A DNA stretch of 64,000 nucleotides, taken from contig NZ_JAKZAM010000003.1 of assembly GCF_022538055.1 (NCBI RefSeq), positions 186,001-250,000 of the forward strand, given 5' to 3'. The notes beneath the pieces were generated by a model. The model was not told the DNA's origin, did not search any database, and saw only the letters and a list, made by a program, of their open reading frames with translations. The position numbers were made by a program, and so were the translations under genes. Shown here piece after piece: positions 16,925 through 39,379 of the stretch (position 1 is its first letter; every line of letters starts with the position of its first letter). This DNA is from Cognataquiflexum nitidum. Its GTDB lineage: Bacteria; Bacteroidota; Bacteroidia; Cytophagales; Cyclobacteriaceae.

Positions 16925-16990
16925 GTAGCCTCGAATGGAATCCCTGCCCTGCCGACAGGCGGGGAACCCATATCTATTGTTTAGAAAACT
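16925..16990 (-). pseudogene. 3' fragment of tRNA-Arg, probable attachment-site remnant
   Basis: The stretch matches the 3' half of the intact tRNA-Arg at 39195-39266 in the same orientation. GTAGCCTCGA (acceptor end) is identical, GGAATC is retained, and a 20-base block AACCCATATCTATTGTTTAG (T-arm to anticodon) is identical, after which similarity fades. A 21-base GC-rich hairpin interrupts the T-loop. Integrative elements that use tRNA genes leave exactly this kind of 3' copy at the far end. I infer an att remnant; no function as a tRNA is possible. Confidence 0.7.
16943..16963. repeat. GC-rich palindrome inserted in the tRNA fragment
   Basis: Compared with the intact tRNA-Arg this 21-base stretch is extra. 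With the next base it forms CCCTGCC-GACA-GGCGGGG (16947-16964), a 7-bp stem with one T-G pair. It is far more GC-rich than its surroundings. A related but different palindrome sits inside the other tRNA pseudogene at 39336-39363. Confidence 0.65.
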
Positions 16991-17368
16991 TCTATTATTG
17001 AGATTGATTTTAAATATTTGTAAATCAATATTTTATAATTTTAATTACAGTAAAGTAAGTCCGTTTGGAACTCCAACTGCAATTTTATTTCAAGGTAAAT
17101 TCAGGTCTTTAGATTTTTACTCACCCTCTCAGGTACAATTAACTTGGTAACAATCGCAAGAAAGTTTCAATGTTTATACCTATCCAAAAATTACGAATTG
17201 TATTCGCTAGTAATTTTCTCAATCAAAGACCCTTTCAGCTTTAAGAAACTTTCAAAGGGAAAAAGCCCTGTTATATTCCTGATTTTGAAATTAGGGACTG
17301 TAAGGAACTATCAGGCTTGGTTTTCTTCTTAAAATAGAATTTCTTTAAGACTAATTCTTAGCTATTCC
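16991..17368. other. non-coding left edge of the island
   Basis: About 380 A/T-rich bases with only short ORFs lacking any recognisable domain or good start. Probably contains the promoter for the gene starting at 17369. Nothing further is recognised. Confidence 0.4.
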
Positions 17369-18211: not shown

Positions 18212-18664
18212 ATGACTCTCCAAAGCGCAGATAAGCTTATCTATGATGATAAAACCTACTATATCTATGCAGAGCCTTTAAGTGATTACTTGAAACAAGC
18301 AGCTTTGCCTTACCCTCTTGTAGCTCCAAATACAGCTTGTTGGAGAGGGTATTCCGCCACCTATACGGTTCAAGGTAACAAGTTGTTCTTGACTGAATGG
18401 AAGGGGTATATTCGTGATTTTATGCAAGTAGGGATTGACTACCTTTTCCCCGGCGAGTCATTTGTCTTTGCGGACTGGTTTACCGGTAGCATTAAGATAA
18501 AGCAATTAGGGGAATACATAGCTGGCAGTGGTCCTTTTGAGATCCACGAAGGCCAGTTGGGTTTGGAATTCGAGCAGGGAATTTTTATTAAAGAATCCGA
18601 ATACTGGCTTCCCAAAGAGGATGTTGAAAGGATTAGAAAGGAAGAAAACGACATGCCTTTTTAA
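18212..18664 (+). CDS. hypothetical protein, 150 aa
   Basis: An aromatic-rich soluble protein (YYIYAEPLSDYL, NTACWRGYSATYTVQGN, YLFPGESFVFADWFTGSIKI) with no signal peptide or membrane segment. The many Tyr/Trp/Phe residues and turn-rich pattern suggest a compact beta domain. Function not recognised. It sits between two further orphans with gaps of about 10-20 bases, so the three probably form one transcription unit. Confidence 0.65.
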   Translation: MTLQSADKLIYDDKTYYIYAEPLSDYLKQAALPYPLVAPNTACWRGYSATYTVQGNKLFLTEWKGYIRDFMQVGIDYLFPGESFVFADWFTGSIKIKQLGEYIAGSGPFEIHEGQLGLEFEQGIFIKESEYWLPKEDVERIRKEENDMPF

Positions 18665-18674
18665 ATTAATAAAT

Positions 18675-19796
18675 ATGATAAGTCACCTCGACCAAGTTTT
18701 GGATTGCTTTGTCCGCATGGATGTAGAAAGGTTGGAATTGTTGCTAAGTGATCAGTTTACCTATTCTGATGTATCGAAGGAAAAGTTTTTAGAAGCCGTT
18801 GATATATTTTTTCAGGATTACAGAAACGAAGATCCTCCCACATTTCAGTTTCAGATTTTCCCGGGGGCATGCTGTAACAAATCCTGTGACCTTCACTTGG
18901 GCACTACTGCTTATCGCTTTATCGGAGCTAGTGACATTTATACAGATATCCGTTTTATACTAGAAGAAAAAGTTGGAGAAGAAAGTGTGGTAAAGGATAT
19001 CTACAACTGCAATCAGTTAATTACCAATGAAATTTCTCCTGAGGTACAAATGCAACGGATCCTGTGGGTATTTGAAGATGATAAAATCACCACCCAACTT
19101 CCTCCTAACTATGCATTGCAATTAAGTCAGGCCCTTTCTGCAGAATCAAGTTGGAAAATGAAAACCAAGGATTTCCCTATTCAGATTGCCGATGTAAGGT
19201 CTTGGTTGGCTGTGCATGAAAATCTATTTCATGATCTGGGAGGCCACCCTCCATCCTACGAGATAATCTGGAAGTGGGATAGATTTCTTGTACTGTATTC
19301 CAATTTGAAGAAGTTTGTTCAGTTTCTGGATGATCTGGATCCTCACCTCCAAAAATTTTCAGATTTAAAAGGTCGGGGATTACCCGAATCAGAACTTCTC
19401 CGCTGGATTGTAGAATTGGAAAAATTGCTAGAGAAAAAGTATAGCAAAGTATATGGTTGGTTTTACGAACTAAAAAATCTTGGGTTCGCTTGGCATATCA
19501 CGATATATATAAGTACTAGATTCCAAACAGAAGACCAGTTGATTACTGATTTACAGGCCTTTTTATCTTGGTTTGAAAAAGAGCGAAAAAAACTATTCGA
19601 TCACTACTTTTCGATGACTTCCGGAGAGGTTGATCAATTTATGGATCAGGCAAAACACCCCTACGAGATCTATCGGGTAATCACTTTGGTTTCCTATCAC
19701 CTGGCGATCAGAGAACGCTTCAAAAAACAAGGTGTTTACATCCCTTTTAATTTAGGAAAGGATCTGGATTTGGAGCAGTACCGTTTGATAGTCTAG
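18675..19796 (+). CDS. hypothetical protein, 373 aa
   Basis: I choose the ATG at 18675 (MISHLDQVLDCFVRMDVERL), 10 bases after the previous stop; the longer frame from 18528 would overlap the upstream gene by 137 bases. The first 130 residues resemble an NTF2/SnoaL-like cone in pattern (helices then a strand-rich part containing PGACCNKSCDLHLGTTAYRF). The rest is helical and rich in Trp/Phe/Leu. A CCxxxC cluster might bind metal. No function is recognised and no membrane segments are present. Confidence 0.65.
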   Translation: MISHLDQVLDCFVRMDVERLELLLSDQFTYSDVSKEKFLEAVDIFFQDYRNEDPPTFQFQIFPGACCNKSCDLHLGTTAYRFIGASDIYTDIRFILEEKVGEESVVKDIYNCNQLITNEISPEVQMQRILWVFEDDKITTQLPPNYALQLSQALSAESSWKMKTKDFPIQIADVRSWLAVHENLFHDLGGHPPSYEIIWKWDRFLVLYSNLKKFVQFLDDLDPHLQKFSDLKGRGLPESELLRWIVELEKLLEKKYSKVYGWFYELKNLGFAWHITIYISTRFQTEDQLITDLQAFLSWFEKERKKLFDHYFSMTSGEVDQFMDQAKHPYEIYRVITLVSYHLAIRERFKKQGVYIPFNLGKDLDLEQYRLIV

Positions 19797-19983: not shown

Positions 19984-20796
19984 ATGAATCCAGAATTCAA
20001 ACTCCTCATCCGAAGCATTTCCTCCTATGTCATGATTTTTTCCGGAGTCCTGATTTTATTCTGGTTTTTATTTGTGATGGGCAGTAGTATCATGGGATTC
20101 AACTTTTTCTCCAGTGAGGCCTTGGAACTTATGGTATTTATTTTTCTGATGGGGATTTCAATCATTGGCGTGGCGGCGGTGATCAATATTAGTTTGAGTA
20201 TCGACCTGATCGCAGATGCTAAAATCAAGGAGTTAAATCTCCCGACTCAACCCAGAAATCTTGGAAAACGCATGGTTGCCTGGACATTGGGTGTGATAGG
20301 AGTCTTGGTTTTACTGGCATTTATAGGAAACTATTCCATCAAAAGAACCCACCTTCGGAAATTCCAGACCTTAACTTCTGACGTGGTTCAATCCCATCAG
20401 GATAATCTCGTGAGGATCTTTGAGTACATGGGGGATACCGCAAAGATTTTAGAGACAAAGAAAATACTATCTCAAGTATCCGGGAGTTCCAATAAAATCT
20501 TAGGGGCGGAGGTGATTCTGAATAGAGAAATTCAGGGTGAAAGCAAATGGGTTGAGATTACTTCCGGAACAGATTCCAGCGCACTTGTCAATCAAGAGTT
20601 CGAACAACTTATAATTATTCTTTCCGGGGACGAGAAGAAACTGATTCAAGAACTGGCTGATGGTACTAAAGCAGGTGCGCAGGTGCTTGAACTGGAAAAC
20701 GGAGAGATCAAAGGATACTATCCGATCAGCAAAAATGGAAAATCTATGGTGGTAAGACTAATTCCGATGCCGGAATCCCGAGGAAGCAGAAATTAG
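19984..20796 (+). CDS. membrane protein of unknown function
   Basis: 270 residues from the ATG at 19984 (MNPEFKLLIRSISSYVMIFS); an upstream extension to 19924 is hydrophobic but looks less natural. Three membrane helices lie at about 15-40, 50-72 and 98-118. The C-terminal half is soluble (GSSNKILGAEVILNREIQGE, ENGEIKGYYPISKNGKSMVV) and probably forms a beta-rich domain. It is followed 23 bases later by a small membrane protein gene. Function not recognised. Confidence 0.65.
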   Translation: MNPEFKLLIRSISSYVMIFSGVLILFWFLFVMGSSIMGFNFFSSEALELMVFIFLMGISIIGVAAVINISLSIDLIADAKIKELNLPTQPRNLGKRMVAWTLGVIGVLVLLAFIGNYSIKRTHLRKFQTLTSDVVQSHQDNLVRIFEYMGDTAKILETKKILSQVSGSSNKILGAEVILNREIQGESKWVEITSGTDSSALVNQEFEQLIIILSGDEKKLIQELADGTKAGAQVLELENGEIKGYYPISKNGKSMVVRLIPMPESRGSRN

Positions 20797-20819: not shown

Positions 20820-21161
20820 ATGGAACAACTGACTAAACTCAAAAGGCTACGAATCGAGAAAGACGAGCTGCTGATCACTATCCGGGAAAAGGAGGAAGCG
20901 AAAACCAAATCGGCTGTTTACCTTGCTATTTTCGTTCTTCTTTTGATTTGGATGGTCGCATTACTCGCAAATCCCAGCGGGGCTCAAGACCCAAATTCGA
21001 TGAACGAATCCGGGGCAAAGTTCCTGAAATTTGTTTCAGGTAAATTTCTGATAGTAAGTTTAGTCCTGATGTACCGGACACACAAGATCAACAAAGAAAT
21101 CCGGGAACTTGAAAAGGAATACGAGGAGATGAAGAAGGGAGTGGGGTATTTGAGTAATTGA
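20820..21161 (+). CDS. small membrane protein with coiled coil
   Basis: 113 residues. A charged N-terminal coiled coil (LKRLRIEKDELLITIREKEE) precedes a membrane helix (VYLAIFVLLLIWMVALLA), a second hydrophobic stretch (FLIVSLVLMY) and a basic/acidic tail (EIRELEKEYEEMKKGVGYL). The last 141 bases recur with about 16 differences at 22392-22532, on the far side of the nuclease gene. Function unknown. Confidence 0.65.
   Translation: MEQLTKLKRLRIEKDELLITIREKEEAKTKSAVYLAIFVLLLIWMVALLANPSGAQDPNSMNESGAKFLKFVSGKFLIVSLVLMYRTHKINKEIRELEKEYEEMKKGVGYLSN
21021..21161 (+). repeat. direct repeat, left copy, flanking the PDDEXK nuclease gene
   Basis: A 141-base segment ending with the stop codon of the preceding gene. 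It matches 22392-22532 without gaps and with about 16 substitutions (roughly 89% identity by eye). Both copies keep the same reading frame. Confidence 0.85.
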
Positions 21162-21225
21162 GGTGGTGGTTTCGGCTCTGGTTTTATAATATTTTCGAAT
21201 CAACCCTTTGGTTTATCTTGAAAAA

Positions 21226-22320
21226 ATGATGGAAGCGAATTACAGAATATGGATTCAGGAATTAAAGCAAAGAATTCGTTCTGCTCAGCTTAAAGCCGCA
21301 GTGGCGGTAAATGAGCAGATGATTATGCTTTATTGGGATATTGGGAAGCAAATAGTCGAAAAACAGCAAGAAGAAAGCTGGGGAAGCAAAGTGGTAGAAC
21401 AGATGGCAAAAGATTTGAAAAATGAACTGCCCGAGACGAATGGATTTTCCAGAACCAACCTGTTTGCCATGCGTCAATTTCACCTATTTTACAAAGATTC
21501 TATCCTCCTACAGCAAGCAGATATTGATTTACAAAACAAAGAAAATCAGAGTGATATAATTGTCCACCAAGCTGGTGGACTAATTGGAGAAGACAATCTG
21601 CTCTGTAAAATGCCGTGGAGACACCATGTGGCAATCCTTAACCACTGTAAAGATACAACCCAAGCCTTTTTCTATATCAAACAAACCATTCAGCATAATT
21701 GGAGCAGAAGTATTTTGGAATTACAGATGGAGTCCGACTTGGATAAGAGACAGGGAAAAGCGCTCAATAACTTTGAACTCACGCTACCCAAAATCCAAAG
21801 CGACCTAGCCAAAGAAACACTGAAAGATCCTTACAAATTTGACTTCCTCACCTTGGAAGCTGATGTACAGGAATTACAGTTGGAGAAAATACTCACGGAA
21901 AATATTTCTAGATTTTTGCTTGAGCTGGGAAAGGGTTTTGCTTTTGTGGGCAGACAGTATCCCCTGCAAATCGGAAATAAAGAACGGAAATTAGATCTGC
22001 TATTTTATCACCTGAAAATGCATTGCTATGTTGTGATAGACTTGAAAATGACGGAGTTTGAACCTGAATTTGCCGGTAAAATGAACTATTACCTAAGTGC
22101 CGTGGACCAACTGTTAAAAACGGAACTTGACCACCCTAGCATTGGGATTATTTTGTGCAAATCAAAAGACAAAATAGAAGTTGAGTTTGCCTTGCAAGAC
22201 CTCAACAAGCCCATGGGAATAAGTGAATTCACCTTCAGTGAATTACCCTTGGACATACAAAAGAACATGCCTACAGTAGAAGAAATCGAAAACGAATTAA
22301 AAGACAATTTGGATGACTAG
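21226..22320 (+). CDS. YhcG/DUF1016-type PDDEXK nuclease-domain protein
   Basis: 364 residues from the ATG at 21226. The N-terminal DUF1016 part includes NYRIWIQELKQRIRSAQLKA, LYWDIGKQIVEKQQE and FSRTNLFAMRQFHLFYKD. The C-terminal nuclease part has the family pattern FVGRQYPLQIGNKERKLDLL, then YVVIDLKMTEFEPEFAGKMN, where D-(x)n-DLK is the PDDEXK-like core. These proteins are predicted DNases common in islands and near restriction systems; no restriction-modification genes adjoin here. The gene is bracketed by two 141-bp direct repeats, which suggests it arrived as a unit or that the region duplicated around it. Confidence 0.88.
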   Translation: MMEANYRIWIQELKQRIRSAQLKAAVAVNEQMIMLYWDIGKQIVEKQQEESWGSKVVEQMAKDLKNELPETNGFSRTNLFAMRQFHLFYKDSILLQQADIDLQNKENQSDIIVHQAGGLIGEDNLLCKMPWRHHVAILNHCKDTTQAFFYIKQTIQHNWSRSILELQMESDLDKRQGKALNNFELTLPKIQSDLAKETLKDPYKFDFLTLEADVQELQLEKILTENISRFLLELGKGFAFVGRQYPLQIGNKERKLDLLFYHLKMHCYVVIDLKMTEFEPEFAGKMNYYLSAVDQLLKTELDHPSIGIILCKSKDKIEVEFALQDLNKPMGISEFTFSELPLDIQKNMPTVEEIENELKDNLDD

Positions 22321-22334
22321 TGGTATAAAATTTT

Positions 22335-22532
22335 ATGGAGAGCATTTCGTTCACTGAGGTTTCTGATGCCGAGAATATATCCCTTCCAAGGTTCCTGAAA
22401 TTTGTTTCCGGTAAATTTCTAATAATAAGCTTGGTCCTGATGTGCCGGACACATAAGAACCATAAAGAAATCCGGGAACTTGAAAGGGAATATAAGCAAA
22501 TGAAGAAGGAAGTGGGGTATTTGAGTAATTGA
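22335..22532 (+). pseudogene. truncated copy of the small membrane protein gene at 20820
   Basis: The reading frame ends FLKFVSGKFLIISLVLMCRT and then EIRELEREYKQMKKEVGYLS, matching the C-terminal half of the upstream protein. The N-terminal coiled coil and first membrane helix are missing and replaced by an unrelated 20-residue start. I read it as a remnant left when the nuclease gene came to lie between two copies. It could still be expressed as a 65-residue peptide. Confidence 0.6.
22392..22532 (+). repeat. direct repeat, right copy, flanking the PDDEXK nuclease gene
   Basis: Pairs with 21021-21161: same length, no gaps, about 16 substitutions. The two copies enclose about 1.2 kb containing one gene. 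Confidence 0.85.
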
Positions 22533-22553
22533 AAAAAACAGCCAAATTAAGGT

Positions 22554-22964
22554 ATGCTAGAACAACTTAAAGAAATCAAAGAAAAACTCAATCAGCTCAT
22601 CCAAGAGGTTGAACAGTTAGAAAACTCAATCCATGGTGAGGAAATAATTATTGAAAGAAAGGATTTTAAGTTTATTAAACGAGTTTCAAGGATAGCAGAT
22701 TCTGATTCTCATCTTTTTCGATATTTAAATGGGGTTTTTTTTAGGCTATATGGAATATCACCTTCTATCTTGTTAGGAGAAAGTTTGAGTTTAGAGTTGA
22801 AATATGAGTATTCAATTTTTAAAGCATTACAAGAAAATCGACTTCAAAAAATTGTTTTGTTAAAATTAAAAGAGCCTGTAACAACAAAAAACGGCTCCAT
22901 AATAACCCATAAAATTGAACAAGAAATTGACTCCAAATTACGTGAAAATTATAGGGTTAAGTGA
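22554..22964 (+). CDS. hypothetical protein with N-terminal coiled coil
   Basis: 136 residues. The first 30 (LKEIKEKLNQLIQEVEQLEN) form a clear coiled coil; the remainder is a mixed alpha/beta domain (FRYLNGVFFRLYGISPSILL). No family is recognised. It lies 21 bases after the remnant gene. A role as a DNA-binding or adaptor protein cannot be judged from sequence. Confidence 0.55.
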   Translation: MLEQLKEIKEKLNQLIQEVEQLENSIHGEEIIIERKDFKFIKRVSRIADSDSHLFRYLNGVFFRLYGISPSILLGESLSLELKYEYSIFKALQENRLQKIVLLKLKEPVTTKNGSIITHKIEQEIDSKLRENYRVK

Positions 22965-27017: not shown

Positions 27018-28517
27018 TTAAATTAATTTCCATCCCCACTTTTCCTTTTTGGAGTCGTAGGTTTTTATGATTTGTCCTTTGAAATTTTGCCCATCGCTGA
27101 GCTTGTATTTTATAATCAATGTTGGCTGGATAAAAGCATCCCCAATAAATCCGAAGCTTGCTCCAGGTTTGATTTTTACAATTCCTTCAACTTCTTTTTG
27201 AAATTGGGATTTGAAGGAATCATCTGTTATTTTCTTACAGGTTAAGACATTGTAACGCCCGCCTTTTGCGCCTCCATTGAATCGGACTGATAGCACTTCT
27301 CCAGGATGGACTTTTTTTAGAAACCGGTCGAATTTGAAGAAGCCAAACTTTTCTTCGGATGCGATAAAGTTAAGCATGCTCTTATCCGAATTGACAAACT
27401 CCACAAGAACGAGTTCTTCCGGGGTATCCGAATATAGTATGCTTTCGGCCAAGGCTGTATGCTGTCGATAGAAGGATTTATTGGAATCCAAAGTCTTTGC
27501 TTCTTGAAACCAAGATTGACTTAACCATTGATTGATGATTCCAGGAATCTTATGCCCGTGAGATTCCTTTACTTTCAAAATCAACTCGATTTCTCTCTTG
27601 GCTTCGTTATAAAGTTTTCGTTGGATCATTGCTTCCGCCATCTTTTGCCTCACTCCAACCAACATCTCCTCCGGACTGGTACAAACCAATGCCCGACAAT
27701 GGCAGGAAAAGACTTTTTCAGGATCTTGTTCTACCGCTTCAGCTAAGACTTCCCATACCCAAAAGTCATTTTGCTTCTTTTGTGCAAAAGGAATCAAGGC
27801 AGACAAAACGTTCTCCTTTTCCCCCAAAGCCAACAAGAGTTTAGCCTGGAAATATGGTGGGTATTGGTAGGCGGGATATTTCTCACTTAAAGCCTCTATC
27901 TGGGGGAGAAATTCTTCTGCTTTCTCCCGATTGAAATAAACATTCCCCTGCATGTCTCTTTGGGGTAGGAGGTGCTTGGCATAAGCGATATAAACCTGCT
28001 CGGCCAAGGCCATGATTTCTTTTCCGGTTGGGAGTTTCTCCTTCTGAAAATCATGTTCGGAAAGATTTTCCAAACCCCACCAATCCATGAATTGGAGGTA
28101 ATATCCGCTATCTTTTAAGCCTTTATGAAACCCTTTCAATAAAAAACTATATCCGTCAGAAGGTTTGGTAAAATGGAAGCCTTGGATCAAATCAGCCAAC
28201 TTCTTTATTTTTTGAACCGGAACAGGTTCTTCTTTGGACAACGCAAACACTAGCTTACCTCCCTGAAAAGACAGGGAATCAAACAGCATCTTTTCATCTT
28301 CGGGTAATTGAAGCTCAACCAACTGAATCAGCCAATAAACAAAGTCTTCAAAGCTTTCAGCAGAAGCATTGATCTTCAGGTAGTCGTAATACACCCAACT
28401 GAGATTCCTCTTGGTCCAGATATTTTCCGGATTAGCTTCGAATTCAGCCTTGGCCATTTCCAAAGCTTCTTCAAGCCTTCCGGATTGACGTAGTTCTTTG
28501 ATTTCTTTAGCTGGCAT
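27018..28517 (-). CDS. TPR-like protein with C-terminal OB/cold-shock-like domains
   Basis: 499 residues, its start overlapping the helicase gene by 11 bases. The first 360 residues are alpha-helical repeats (LRQSGRLEEALEMAKAEFEA at the start). The last 130 residues contain two small beta domains (SEEKFGFFKFDRFLKKVHPG and VEGIVKIKPGASFGFIGDAF) that resemble cold-shock or S1-type OB folds. Such folds would suit nucleic-acid binding. Tight coupling to the helicase suggests one complex. I do not recognise a named system. Confidence 0.7.
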   Translation of the reverse strand: MPAKEIKELRQSGRLEEALEMAKAEFEANPENIWTKRNLSWVYYDYLKINASAESFEDFVYWLIQLVELQLPEDEKMLFDSLSFQGGKLVFALSKEEPVPVQKIKKLADLIQGFHFTKPSDGYSFLLKGFHKGLKDSGYYLQFMDWWGLENLSEHDFQKEKLPTGKEIMALAEQVYIAYAKHLLPQRDMQGNVYFNREKAEEFLPQIEALSEKYPAYQYPPYFQAKLLLALGEKENVLSALIPFAQKKQNDFWVWEVLAEAVEQDPEKVFSCHCRALVCTSPEEMLVGVRQKMAEAMIQRKLYNEAKREIELILKVKESHGHKIPGIINQWLSQSWFQEAKTLDSNKSFYRQHTALAESILYSDTPEELVLVEFVNSDKSMLNFIASEEKFGFFKFDRFLKKVHPGEVLSVRFNGGAKGGRYNVLTCKKITDDSFKSQFQKEVEGIVKIKPGASFGFIGDAFIQPTLIIKYKLSDGQNFKGQIIKTYDSKKEKWGWKLI

Positions 28518-30696
28518 ATTCGTCTTGTTTAAAAGTTTGCAATAACGTTTTAATGTTTGATAGCAACGTCGGACTATTTGTCATACTTTGAATAGGAACA
28601 ACCCTGCCAAAAAAACCATTCTTTTTATATTCAAAATCAACTACAGCTGTTTCATTGTTTCGCTTAAATCTATAGCGCTCTTTGTATTGCTGATGTTCAA
28701 TACCATCAATGTTGATACCCGTTTCTTTAAACAACAATACTAAGTCATCAAACAAACTTCTTGTAAATGGGAACTCTTCTTCTACCTCAAAGTCAAATTC
28801 AATTTGGCTAATAATCGTTTCGGCTGTATTTCGCTTTATGGAAACATTTGGTAAATGATTTAATATTTCAGCTATTGTATTATTGAATGCACTACTTGGG
28901 GAAAGATTTGGCATAGACGCAAATGGATTTCGAAATTCATTTTTCCCGTTTATATAAGTTCTGAAAACTGCTTTGTCTTGCTCCCTCTTAAAAGTGTATC
29001 TAATCTCATAGCCAAATTTCTCCCACCCAACAATTTCAATGTATTGCTTCCTTACTGCCTGGCGAACTTTGATAAAATGATCCTGCAATGCAACAGGTTG
29101 CTCTAAAAGGTTCAGCATTGTAAGCTGTTGCAGCAATTCATTGTCCAGACTGATTTCTTCTGTTTGAACCTGATTGCCATTTAATTCTTTTAATGCATTC
29201 AAAACTGTTACATCGAGGAATGTCATATCTGAATAGGAATTGAAAAACGGTGGATTTAATGCATATAAGGTTTTTGATGCCCGGGTGATTGCGGTGTACG
29301 CGCATCGATAAAAATCCTGATTTGTTTTTCCAGCTCTCCGCTGTTTATCTGTGAAGCAGTCGAAACCTTCCATAGTATCATTATCCCAAACGGTAAATAC
29401 ATTATTCCATTCACCACCTTGAGCCTTATGGCAAGTAACGGCATAACCGTACTTCATAAGCAGGCAATTGAAAAACTCATCCTGCATAATGGCTTCCTTA
29501 AACTCTTCTGTTTTGGGCTTTAAACCCTTATGCCGGGTAGTAAAGTCTACATACAAAGCTTGGGTTTCTTCCGGCTTCAGGTAATTGTCTCCGTAAAGGA
29601 AGTTTTCAAGCATTTTGCCCTTTACAATCTTATTATTGGTTTCTATATCCGGAAAAACCAACTCCACATCACGCCAGTAAAGTGTTACCGGATTTTTACC
29701 TCTTAATGCAATTGTTCGCTGGGTAACTACATCGCTTACTTCATTGATTACTGCAAATTCACCATTAAAAATGCCCTTGCGATAATTATTACCACCCATG
29801 ATGACAATATCACTTTTCTGAATAGGCAAATCAGCATTACCAAATCTTCGTCCTCTTATCTGTAAATTTAGATCAAGACAAGTTTTATTCTTACTGGCAA
29901 TTATAATTTTTGGACTTGCTGCAACTTGCCAAGTTTCGAGGAAATTTTCATAGGTAGGATTTAGAATATCCTTAGCATTTGAACGCAAATTGAAGTCATT
30001 GAAAAAACGGGCTGAAATACTCTTACGAATTTTTGCAGCTGCTCTCAGAATGCCACTATCACCACCTTGCCGTTTTATTTCCTTCATTTCGGTTTCTTCT
30101 GAAGAAAGATTGAACTTCTCTTTAAGATAGTTGGCTTCAAATGCTTTTGAACTATTATCTCCTACCGGTGGTAATTGACAAGGGTCTCCAACAAAGATAA
30201 TTTTAGAATTTACGTTAGGCTGTGCAACCCTTGTGTAAGTAATCAAATCAGACAATAAGTGGCTTGATCCAAAACGGAAAAACTCTCCTTCGCTTTTGGC
30301 ATCAGATAACATCGAGGCTTCATCCACTATGAATATCTTGCCGACCACATCCACATTTTTCCGGATTTTATAATAGTAATAGAAAGAATCACCTTCTTCT
30401 ATCTCTACCATATCTTCATAGCTATAGATAGACTTATGAATAGTGTACGCTTCTTGCCCAGTTTTTTCTTGGATTACTTTTGCTGCTCTGCCTGTTGGAG
30501 CCATCAAGGCAAAATCCTTTTCAACTGCATTGAGATATTCTGCTAACCCTTTCAGGATGGTTGTTTTACCACTGCCGGCATATCCTTTCAGCATAAACAC
30601 CTGCACTGGACTGGCTAAAAAAGCCTCCAGCTTAGTTAGAGCCGCTTCCTGGTCTTGGCTTAGGTTTAAATGCTTAAAGTGATTGAATATGCTCAT
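28507..30696 (-). CDS. RecD/Dda-like superfamily 1 DNA helicase
   Basis: 729 residues. Motif I is GYAGSGKTT (38-46), motif II KIFIVDEASML, motif III IIFVGDPCQLPPVGDNSS, and the C-terminal helicase motifs are AVTCHKAQGGEWNNVFTVWD and YTAITRASKTLYALNPP, as in RecD2/Dda (AAA_30 plus UvrD_C_2). About 200 C-terminal residues are extra and unrecognised (ITIKVRQAVRKQY-type region to the end). The start lies 114 bases downstream of the HEPN gene. Unlike RecD it has no RecB/RecC partner; instead it overlaps the TPR/OB-like gene. It could unwind phage DNA or process recombination intermediates. Confidence 0.9.
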   Translation of the reverse strand: MSIFNHFKHLNLSQDQEAALTKLEAFLASPVQVFMLKGYAGSGKTTILKGLAEYLNAVEKDFALMAPTGRAAKVIQEKTGQEAYTIHKSIYSYEDMVEIEEGDSFYYYYKIRKNVDVVGKIFIVDEASMLSDAKSEGEFFRFGSSHLLSDLITYTRVAQPNVNSKIIFVGDPCQLPPVGDNSSKAFEANYLKEKFNLSSEETEMKEIKRQGGDSGILRAAAKIRKSISARFFNDFNLRSNAKDILNPTYENFLETWQVAASPKIIIASKNKTCLDLNLQIRGRRFGNADLPIQKSDIVIMGGNNYRKGIFNGEFAVINEVSDVVTQRTIALRGKNPVTLYWRDVELVFPDIETNNKIVKGKMLENFLYGDNYLKPEETQALYVDFTTRHKGLKPKTEEFKEAIMQDEFFNCLLMKYGYAVTCHKAQGGEWNNVFTVWDNDTMEGFDCFTDKQRRAGKTNQDFYRCAYTAITRASKTLYALNPPFFNSYSDMTFLDVTVLNALKELNGNQVQTEEISLDNELLQQLTMLNLLEQPVALQDHFIKVRQAVRKQYIEIVGWEKFGYEIRYTFKREQDKAVFRTYINGKNEFRNPFASMPNLSPSSAFNNTIAEILNHLPNVSIKRNTAETIISQIEFDFEVEEEFPFTRSLFDDLVLLFKETGINIDGIEHQQYKERYRFKRNNETAVVDFEYKKNGFFGRVVPIQSMTNSPTLLSNIKTLLQTFKQDEYAS

Positions 30697-31638: not shown

Positions 31639-33177
31639 TTAATCATTATTTTCGAAAATTTCCATTGCCTTTTCCAAGCCTTCTTTAAACAGCAAATCCA
31701 ATACATTTTCCAGAAAATCTTCTCTTTTTTGCAACTTCGGTTTTATTGGAGCTCCGCATAATTCATTAAATCTACTTTTCAATTTACTATACATATTTGA
31801 CTCCCCTCGCACCATTTTCAAATAGTTCAATTTTCCCTCAATGACACTTGCCATATCAGGCCTTCCTTTTAAGATATGACTTTTATTCTTGAGGTATTCA
31901 GCCATGAAAAAGGAGTATGCCCTATCATACCCGTATCTTTCCCAGTAATACAGCCACATCCGGAGCTGCTTAACATAGCGTTTGGAAACATTTACTTTTT
32001 CATTGACCACTAAGCCTGTGACTTCTTGTCTAAAACCTTCTTTCTGAAGCCGGGTTTTTGACTCTTTTATTTCAAATCCTTGATCTTTAACAACCCTCTC
32101 AAGTTCAATCAGAAACTCTGAATCTTTCTGATAAACATTGTGCATGGAACTGAAGGTAAGATCATCTGCATATCTAGTGTATCGAAGTCCAAATCGTTTA
32201 GCCACCCCATTCAACCGATGATCCATTTTGTGGCAGATGATATTGGTAATCGTAGGTGATGTCGGGGCTCCCTGTGGAAGTACATTTCGCTTAGTCTTGA
32301 CCCAATTATTTTCAGGATCTTTGCGTTCTACCTCAAGTTCAGTACAGCAAATTCCAGCAATTATATTGGCGATTTCTAATTTGCCCAAGGAAGGGATCTC
32401 ATTAACCAACCATGCCACTTTTTTGGCATCATTTTCAAATTTCCAGTGAGAATGGTGTGATTTGGTTATTACATAAATGGGTTTTTCATCATTTATGGAA
32501 CTAGAGGCAAAAAGCTTAACCTTGAATTGATTTGAGGGAACGGGAACAAAAATTTCATAAAAAGGATGGTCTCTTTCCGGAATATCACTTTTATCAACTA
32601 CGACTTCTGAAACATAAGAGTAACGATACCTTTGGAATGTTATATCCTTAGACTTTAAAACCTGAGTTGAGAATTCTTCCCAAGGCATAGAAAAAATTTC
32701 AGGCGAAGTTTCTTTATTAAGATTGAATGGAGGCAATTGAAGAACTTTCCAAACTCTTGCCTGTTCGATGGATGGGAAAAAGTCTTTTAAATCTAGATTA
32801 TAGACATAACGCTGGCCAACGTGAGCCTTGGCATTATCTACAATAGATTTTCCAGGGACAAATCCCGTTGCAGCAAGGTGAGGCTGGTTAATTGCCTGAA
32901 GGATTACATTTAATATTTGTTGAAGTGATTTCAGCTTTCCAATAGGGGCATGGATTGATCTTTCACCTCCGGATTTCTTGTTTACCTGAAATTCAAAATA
33001 CCTTTTACCTCCTAGGTTTGCATTTGCATATCTGGTCAGTTTTGTCATACTAAAGGAGTATGCTTTTTCCCCATATATCCACTCTGCAACCAGATTGATA
33101 AAGTTCAAAAGATCTTCCTTGGTCTGAAGTCTTTTAAAATTTTCCCTTACGTATTTAACTTGATTTTCAGTTAGCAT
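31639..33177 (-). CDS. retron-type reverse transcriptase
   Basis: 512 residues. Retron-specific motifs are all present: NAKAH (N115-H119, the NAxxH region X motif), catalytic NLDLKDFFPSI (D129), PQGAPTSP (301-308), TRYADDLTFSS (YADD at 336-339) and EVTGLVVNEK (VTG at 386-388, region Y). The enzyme would reverse-transcribe the adjacent non-coding RNA into branched msDNA. It is long for the family (often 300-400 residues). The extra length lies mostly between motif A and the QG motif (about 145-290, e.g. RDHPFYEIFVPVPSNQFKV) and in a C-terminal tail. The start at 33177 is 24 bases downstream of the RNA's a2 repeat. Confidence 0.95.
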   Translation of the reverse strand: MLTENQVKYVRENFKRLQTKEDLLNFINLVAEWIYGEKAYSFSMTKLTRYANANLGGKRYFEFQVNKKSGGERSIHAPIGKLKSLQQILNVILQAINQPHLAATGFVPGKSIVDNAKAHVGQRYVYNLDLKDFFPSIEQARVWKVLQLPPFNLNKETSPEIFSMPWEEFSTQVLKSKDITFQRYRYSYVSEVVVDKSDIPERDHPFYEIFVPVPSNQFKVKLFASSSINDEKPIYVITKSHHSHWKFENDAKKVAWLVNEIPSLGKLEIANIIAGICCTELEVERKDPENNWVKTKRNVLPQGAPTSPTITNIICHKMDHRLNGVAKRFGLRYTRYADDLTFSSMHNVYQKDSEFLIELERVVKDQGFEIKESKTRLQKEGFRQEVTGLVVNEKVNVSKRYVKQLRMWLYYWERYGYDRAYSFFMAEYLKNKSHILKGRPDMASVIEGKLNYLKMVRGESNMYSKLKSRFNELCGAPIKPKLQKREDFLENVLDLLFKEGLEKAMEIFENND

Positions 33178-39175: not shown

Positions 39176-39194
39176 AAATCATTGTAAAACTGTG

Positions 39195-39266
39195 TAGCCT
39201 CGACGGGAATCGAACCCATATCTATTGTTTAGGAAACAACTATTCTATCCATTGAACTACGAGGCC
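39195..39266 (-). tRNA. tRNA-Arg (anticodon CCT)
   Basis: A 72-nt minus-strand gene that folds as a full cloverleaf: acceptor GGCCTCG/CGAGGCT, D-arm GTTCAATGGATAGAAT, anticodon stem GTTGT/ACAAT with loop TTCCTAA (anticodon CCT, reads AGG), T-arm ATGGGTTCGATTCCCGT, discriminator A. CCA is not encoded. Its 3' end points to lower coordinates, into the accessory region. A partial copy lies at 16925 and a broken copy at 39298. Confidence 0.93.
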
Positions 39267-39297
39267 ATTTGCACTTGTAAAGATGACTAATATATCT

Positions 39298-39379
39298 AAC
39301 CCATATCTATTGTTTAGGAAACAACTATTATATCCCCGTCCGACCGATGTCAGCCGGGCGGGCATTGAACTACGAAGCC
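39298..39379 (-). pseudogene. broken tRNA-Arg copy interrupted by a GC-rich palindrome
   Basis: A second copy of the tRNA-Arg lies 32 bases upstream of the intact gene. Thirty-two bases from the T-arm through the anticodon are identical, and the 5' acceptor end is kept with one change. The 3' acceptor end is missing, and a 28-base insertion splits the D-arm. It cannot make a functional tRNA. Confidence 0.8.
39336..39363. repeat. GC-rich palindrome inserted in the tRNA pseudogene
   Basis: The 28 bases are absent from the intact tRNA. They form CCCGTCCG / CGGGCGGG, an 8-bp stem with one T-G pair (39335-39362), around a 12-base loop. It resembles the palindrome at 16943-16963 in GC content, size and choice of site (inside a tRNA-Arg copy). 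Confidence 0.65.

Follow-up and report, generated by a model that had tools for sequence, protein, structure and literature searches.

A DUF1016/YhcG nuclease gene between two copies of a gene tail in Cognataquiflexum nitidum, probably the trace of a tail-borne insertion

The analysed window is a stretch of 64,000 nucleotides from Cognataquiflexum nitidum, in which a predicted nuclease gene of the DUF1016/YhcG family is enclosed by two direct copies of the 3' end of a small gene. The locus comprises the following features:

18528-19796, + strand: gene p373, true start uncertain, found beside relatives of the 113-aa gene in genomes G330, G170 and G743
19984-20796, + strand: upstream gene of 270 aa (p270), in an order that is kept in G743
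20820-21161, + strand: intact target gene of 113 aa, a small protein with a hydrophobic stretch, whose 3' end is the left repeat
21016-21161, + strand: left repeat copy (U), the final 48 codons of the 113-aa gene, stop included
21162-22386, + strand: cargo between the repeats, 1225 bp, with the nuclease gene inside
21226-22320, + strand: predicted DUF1016/YhcG PDDEXK nuclease gene, 364 aa from the ATG, with both Pfam domains and a D...DLK motif
22335-22532, + strand: 65-aa ORF holding the right repeat, most likely a gene remnant
22387-22532, + strand: right repeat copy (D), beginning 67 bp past the nuclease stop

The two repeat copies align over 146 bp without gaps, with 17 differences (88% identity), and form the longest direct-repeat family that a search of the 64-kb window with a length threshold of 40 returned. 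The match between the 1.5-kb flanks of the nuclease gene has an E-value of about 1e-50, and the repeat is thus not due to chance. Both copies end exactly at a TGA stop codon, the left one as the 3' end of the 113-aa ORF and the right one as the end of the 65-aa ORF, which is most likely a gene remnant and not a gene. The original prediction had described gene-tail copies of 141 bp and about 89% identity on both sides of a YhcG/DUF1016-like gene; this is the same repeat, its coordinates were right, and the presence of the tail on either side was confirmed. A DNA search of the own genome with positions 20820-22560 reported no further site, which led to rejection of a dispersed repeat as an explanation for the window, and on the protein level the 113-aa sequence matched just the two repeat sites in this genome.

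Several familiar types of mobile element were compared with this arrangement. No integrase or transposase ORF is listed in the cargo (21162-22386), and the YhcG gene is the sole ORF of at least 100 aa on either strand between the repeats, which differs from an integrase-borne island. Among the inverted-repeat pairs found, none lies at the cargo ends, and a repeat of 146 bp with 88% identity differs from the short identical duplication expected of a transposon. The repeat is a coding gene end that runs in frame to the stop, not the non-coding attC site of an integron gene cassette.

The nuclease ORF is intact, with its ATG at 21226 and its stop at 22318-22320. It matches DUF1016_N (E = 7.2e-39, 133.5 bits against a Pfam cut-off of 32.8) and YhcG_C (E = 2.9e-60, 203.1 bits against 32.5), and the catalytic D ... 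(E/D)xK motif can be read in the sequence as KLDLLFY ... VIDLK, which makes the product a probable DNA-cutting enzyme. A simple pattern applied to 199 family sequences gave ELK in 130 and DLK in 41, with no match in 16. Genes of this family are present in 141 of 395 genomes sampled in the phylum and on 430 plasmid records. The part of PMC1189080 that deals with COG4804 treats DUF1016/YhcG as a predicted nuclease whose function is given as unknown, and obvious conserved neighbours are not reported there; both Pfam domains concerned also occur in the window gene. The words "homing" and "mobile" are absent from the available text of PMC1189080, and mobility of the family is not mentioned in the titles and abstracts of the papers found on DUF1016/YhcG, PDDEXK repeats, free-standing homing and ORF6N.

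The locus sits in a 22-kb interval between tRNA-Arg(CCT)-like sequences: a partial copy near 16953-17007 and the tRNA gene itself (39194-39266), which is closely followed by another partial copy (39294-39335). Genes for an AAA_15 ATPase, a TBP-TOTE helicase, a reverse transcriptase, a WYL protein and a DUF4407 protein occur in the interval; those of the helicase (28507-30696) and the reverse transcriptase (31639-33177) are on the same strand. The tRNA fragments and this gene content give the locus the look of a defence-type island at a tRNA gene. The ORFs tested included no recognisable integrase, and other genomes of the genus match the tRNA-linked stretch, not the cargo. Elsewhere in the own genome, three further DUF1016 loci showed no flanking repeat. 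On contig C26 (L372, 3604-6663) three repeats of 150-170 bp, 86-92% alike, alternate with two ORF6N genes in a cassette-like array, and on contig C69 (L370, 6550-8010) dense overlapping repeats, 92-97% alike, lie close to another YhcG gene without enclosing it.

The 113-aa protein had no Pfam family above the cut-off and no relative in GTDB genome contigs, plasmids, phages or viral contigs. A search of 98 related genomes returned the own genome and one match broken by five stops, and among 390 genomes of the family seven others matched (E < 1e-4), all in genus g113. Four of these (G330, G170, G778 and G810) carry a single, distant relative along the full length of the protein, with no YhcG match in the 6.0 to 8.5 kb read around it, and in G330 and G170 it adjoins p373. 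G743 keeps the order p373-p270-p113, and identity to the 113-aa gene is 89% over its first 28 codons; beyond them the similarity ends, a DEAD/Helicase_C gene follows, and no copy of the gene's tail was found in the following 12 kb. The locus in G796 is cut by a contig end, and the match in G730 was not repeated on a second reading. The 270-aa protein went unmatched when the other four genomes of the genus were searched. The search proposed with the original prediction, for relatives with one copy of the 113-aa gene and no nuclease nearby, was thus successful in four genomes, and the arrangement that would have spoken against the prediction, two distinct conserved genes kept in this order everywhere, was not what these genomes showed. 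Over 46 residues, the U and D tails share 19 and 20 identities, respectively, with the G330 protein, and 19 and 15 with that of G170; where the two window tails differ in amino acids, each keeps family-like residues, at different sites.

Recurrence of the structure was surveyed by comparing the 1-kb flanks of DUF1016 genes for direct repeats, with neighbouring ORFs as controls. The 199 genes located were a mix of picks by similarity to the window nuclease and family matches, many of them in draft genomes or metagenome assemblies. Flanks of 500 bp or more were available on both sides of 184 genes, which were tested, with near-duplicates (for example L028/L029 and L185/L186) left unmerged. At L270 and at the ORF6N loci L228 and L236 the match had no covering ORF, and these were omitted. 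In the first set, 20 of 88 DUF1016 loci had a direct repeat, compared with 12 of 150 neighbouring ORFs, and two of the first control matches (L019 and L281) turned out to be YhcG genes themselves. In the enlarged set, any repeat was found at 31/184 loci versus 18/304 controls (p = 1.5e-4), close repeats at 20/184 versus 12/304 (p = 4.1e-3), and close and single repeats at 16/184 versus 5/304 (p = 3.3e-4). After the controls had been purged of YhcG genes by profile (8 of 699 removed) and extended, any flanking repeat occurred at 31/184 DUF1016 loci and 20/425 controls (p = 3.5e-6). A stricter rule, a duplicated tail of the upstream gene, held for 15/184 loci versus 5/425 controls (odds ratio 7.5, p = 3.5e-5); the 15 is an upper figure, as L057, L079, L244 and perhaps L061 are likely dispersed repeats and L239 is doubtful by eye, and the rule misses three cases seen by eye (L281, L038 and L043). 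The window is counted among the 184, the 31 and the 15. At the other 169 DUF1016 loci the tail rule did not hold, and E. coli K-12 yhcG has no flanking repeat. Among the YhcG genes found as neighbours, seven were testable, with any repeat at three and a tail at none. ORF6N loci (any repeat 2/28, tail 0/28) and Fic loci (1/23 for each) are samples too small for a comparison of DUF1016 with other cargo.

The target genes at these loci are unrelated to each other. They encode a glycosyltransferase 2 (L106), a DUF7033 protein (L018), a histidine kinase (L126), a Type ISP restriction-modification enzyme (L263), a glutamate dehydrogenase (L264), an Eco57I restriction-modification methylase (L293), a cyclophilin/FKBP protein (L196), RhuM (L202) and an N6-methylase with DUF559 (L281); the 225-aa target at L062 matched no Pfam family at E 1e-5. 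Repeat lengths range from 22 bp (L038) to 362 bp (L031). The right end of the repeat coincides with the target stop in the window and at L038, and lies 2 bp past it at L106, 3 bp at L062 and L043, 5 bp at L018 and 11 bp at L264; ends at or near the stop would result if the coding tails are orthologous and the DNA beyond them is not related. At L281, on the reverse strand, the order is methylase, YhcG, tail, YhcG, tail and next gene, which makes three N6-methylase tails in all, separated by two YhcG genes that differ from each other, apparently through two successive insertions. L031 is the mirror case, with the 5' part of the downstream gene repeated upstream of the nuclease. The similar structures around DUF1016/YhcG genes suggest that these genes have moved into unrelated gene ends with a borrowed tail.

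The differences between paired tails bear on where the tails come from. In eight gap-free pairs, the window excluded, 13, 8 and 52 differences fall on first, second and third codon positions, and the share of third positions (52/73) exceeds both one third (p = 4e-11) and 0.54 (p = 0.002). The individual counts are 1, 0 and 12 at L106, 6, 5 and 16 at L263, 2, 1 and 8 at L293, 0, 0 and 9 at L196, and 1, 0 and 5 at L264, with no third-position excess at L062 (3, 1 and 2) and L202 (0, 1 and 0) and no differences at L018. L281 (4, 0 and 1 at most, without third-position excess) and L126 (gaps) were kept outside the pool. Owing to the third-position excess, one tail in the family was probably imported from a working orthologue. 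In the window the counts are 4, 5 and 8 (third positions 8/17, p = 0.17), and nine codons differ in amino acid.

The best-resolved case is the glutamate dehydrogenase locus L264 in G379, for which 12 genomes of the genus were searched. In six relatives the glutamate dehydrogenase gene is followed after 89-115 bp by the next gene, a short empty site, and in a seventh, G721, the nuclease is likewise absent and the spacer differs. Before the stop codon, the U tail is resident-like at 3/3 sites that set G721 and G713 apart from most others; after the stop it is G718-like at 6/6 sites at which one copy agrees with G718 and the other with G721. The D tail shows the reverse pattern at the same sites. 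The two tails therefore look like reciprocal chimeras, a reading that relies on about nine sites at one locus with a gappy far intergenic alignment, and coding site -9 does not fit it. Such a pattern is what a single crossover between the resident gene and a circle of tail, downstream DNA and nuclease would be expected to produce. This locus was the reason for setting aside target-site duplication and homology-facilitated end-joining.

Other cargo between tails of the same gene was found at a glycosyltransferase site. In G225 a 288-bp stretch, made up of 218 bp ending just past the glycosyltransferase stop and about 70 bp more, flanks a DUF1016 gene; its left copy is interrupted by a dispersed repeat, and no clear donor was found for this site. 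The dispersed repeat in the left glycosyltransferase tail at L163, about 150 bp long, occurs at many other sites in genomes of genus g41. In G044 the tail of the same glycosyltransferase gene flanks an ORF6N gene (Pfam E = 2.7e-28). There the left tail is resident-like (143/148 identical with G225), the right coding tail is foreign to the group (125/148 identical with its own left copy), and the pieces downstream of U and D are nearly identical. G255 has two glycosyltransferase tails, 99% alike and 13.8 kb apart, around other cargo, and G242 also has other cargo, with the second tail absent on that stretch. Exchange of cargo, one of the two origins considered in the original prediction, is thereby supported in kind, and the different cargo that it proposed to look for exists (DUF1016 in G225, ORF6N in G044), at the glycosyltransferase gene and not at the 113-aa gene. 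The other origin, insertion with duplication, holds up in kind as acquisition at a gene end, but plain duplication is not the best reading for the family, given the third-position differences in the non-window pairs and the crossover-like pattern at L264.

The insertion at L196 is common to G367, G724 and G653, in the genus in which the gene was tested, and its occurrence in three separate assemblies speaks against misassembly there. The tails are 97% alike within G724, 98% within G653 and 85% within G367, and 83-88% alike between the species of G724 and G653, which points to recombination between the repeats or to repeated insertion. As the repeats are more alike within the genome than between species in two of three genomes, such flanking repeats probably recombine. 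Loss of the nuclease gene by this route, as had been envisaged for the window, was not observed.

Taken together, the window locus is probably the trace of a tail-borne insertion. A circle carrying the nuclease gene and a gene tail would, as in the best-resolved relative case, undergo a single crossover with the resident gene close to the stop codon; this would leave the target gene whole with the U copy, followed by the nuclease, and the headless second tail (D) would then adjoin the former right flank. For the window, the target would be the 113-aa gene and the tail the 146-bp repeat. The window locus would share this origin with the relative case, and the crossover would by default be carried out by host homologous recombination. 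What is seen directly in the window is the repeat, the intact target gene and the intact nuclease ORF, a structure that recurs at other loci, and an empty site together with tail chimerism is seen at one relative. That the nuclease gene arrived as a small cargo, linked to a 3' end of the target gene from a foreign source, is given about an even chance. Among the points that speak against it, the codon positions in the window may also reflect an in-place duplication that has drifted, the near-identical downstream pieces in G044 are unexplained by one crossover, the chimera relies on few sites at one locus, the third-position excess is absent from some tail pairs (L062, L281), and only a minority of DUF1016 loci have tails. 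No donor tail was found for the window.

The alternative that survives best, possible although on the whole unlikely, is that gene ends in defence-rich islands gather any cargo by homologous exchange, with DUF1016 as one passenger. It would account for the repeats at ORF6N (2/28) and Fic (1/23) loci and at controls (tails at 5/425), and for the different cargo that G255 and G242 have at the glycosyltransferase site, but not for the excess of DUF1016 loci over their own neighbours in the survey. The own-genome array of ORF6N genes and 150-170-bp repeats, like the small ORF6N and Fic samples, leaves such repeats only possibly specific to DUF1016 over other cargo. A homing-type process, in which the nuclease would be the engine that cuts nuclease-free targets near their 3' end so that repair copies nuclease and tail, is a more doubtful candidate. 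The enrichment of tails at DUF1016 over neighbouring genes and the intact nuclease ORF would agree with it, as would a layout like that in the part of PMC3630166 on fungal genes, where the gene core is followed by an inserted C-terminus of foreign origin, the endonuclease ORF and the native C-terminus in a displaced position. However, unlike the fungal genes, L264 and G044 have the foreign-looking coding tail downstream, such tails also enclose ORF6N, not a nuclease according to Pfam, and the target genes are unrelated, with a cut site that is hypothetical. Still less likely is an in-place duplication, by which the insertion would have doubled the local gene end through target-site duplication or tandem slippage and the spare copy drifted. 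The third positions in the window (8/17) are compatible with drift and no reading-frame break is seen, in a copy that is short; this contrasts with the third-position excess elsewhere (52/73), the wide variation in repeat length (22 bp at L038 to 362 bp at L031), the tail chimerism at L264, and the family-like residues kept at different sites by U and D in the window. The weakest reading, a tandem pair of the 113-aa gene and a neighbouring paralogue that received the nuclease gene between them, with loss of the 5' part of the second copy, fits the nearly equal distance of U and D from the G330 protein (19 and 20 of 46) but is improbable, as relatives hold one copy in the stretches read and separate tandem pairs would be needed for many unrelated targets.

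Among known systems, the mORFs of fungal mitochondria appear to come closest to the window in layout. The part of PMC3630166 concerned describes mitochondrial genes of fungi (Glomus, Allomyces atp6) whose C-terminus is present twice, once on each side of an endonuclease ORF, and cites Allomyces atp6 as the first case. Like the mORFs portrayed there, the loci described here consist of a gene core, a duplicated C-terminal part, a free-standing endonuclease ORF and a second C-terminal part, one tail looks foreign at L264 and, from pooled codon positions, probably in the family, with largely synonymous differences, and several unrelated target genes are involved; in the window, a predicted endonuclease gene lies between two copies of the target's 3' end. 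Unlike the mORFs of that account, which belong to mitochondria and encode LAGLIDADG or GIY-YIG enzymes, the window gene is a bacterial YhcG gene for which cutting is predicted, and whereas mORFs have the inserted tail upstream and the native one downstream, the foreign-looking coding tail of L264 is downstream. The window locus thus seems to resemble a mORF in layout, and membership is not claimed, because cutting is a prediction and, where they can be told apart, the foreign and resident tails follow another order.

A second comparison concerns bacterial genomic islands. Where an integrase-borne island or prophage occupies the 3' end of a protein gene, as e14 does at icd, the element brings along a copy of that 3' end; the target gene is kept intact, and its headless tail is left at the opposite border. 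The window shares the whole gene and the headless tail beyond the cargo, but has no integrase between the repeats, where one gene makes up a unit of about 1.2 kb.

On a wider scale, DUF1016/YhcG could be a large bacterial and archaeal family of free-standing mobile nucleases that colonise the 3' ends of unrelated genes, with a donor tail that keeps the invaded gene whole and a nuclease that promotes the exchange, and hence a prokaryotic counterpart of mORFs; this is a tentative proposal that is rather unlikely to hold in full. If these genes are mobile gene-end swappers, the DUF1016/YhcG family would gain a testable role, and the odd gene-tail fragments beside its members would be explained. 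Bacteria would then also have a route by which the 3' ends of core and restriction-modification genes are swapped between species.
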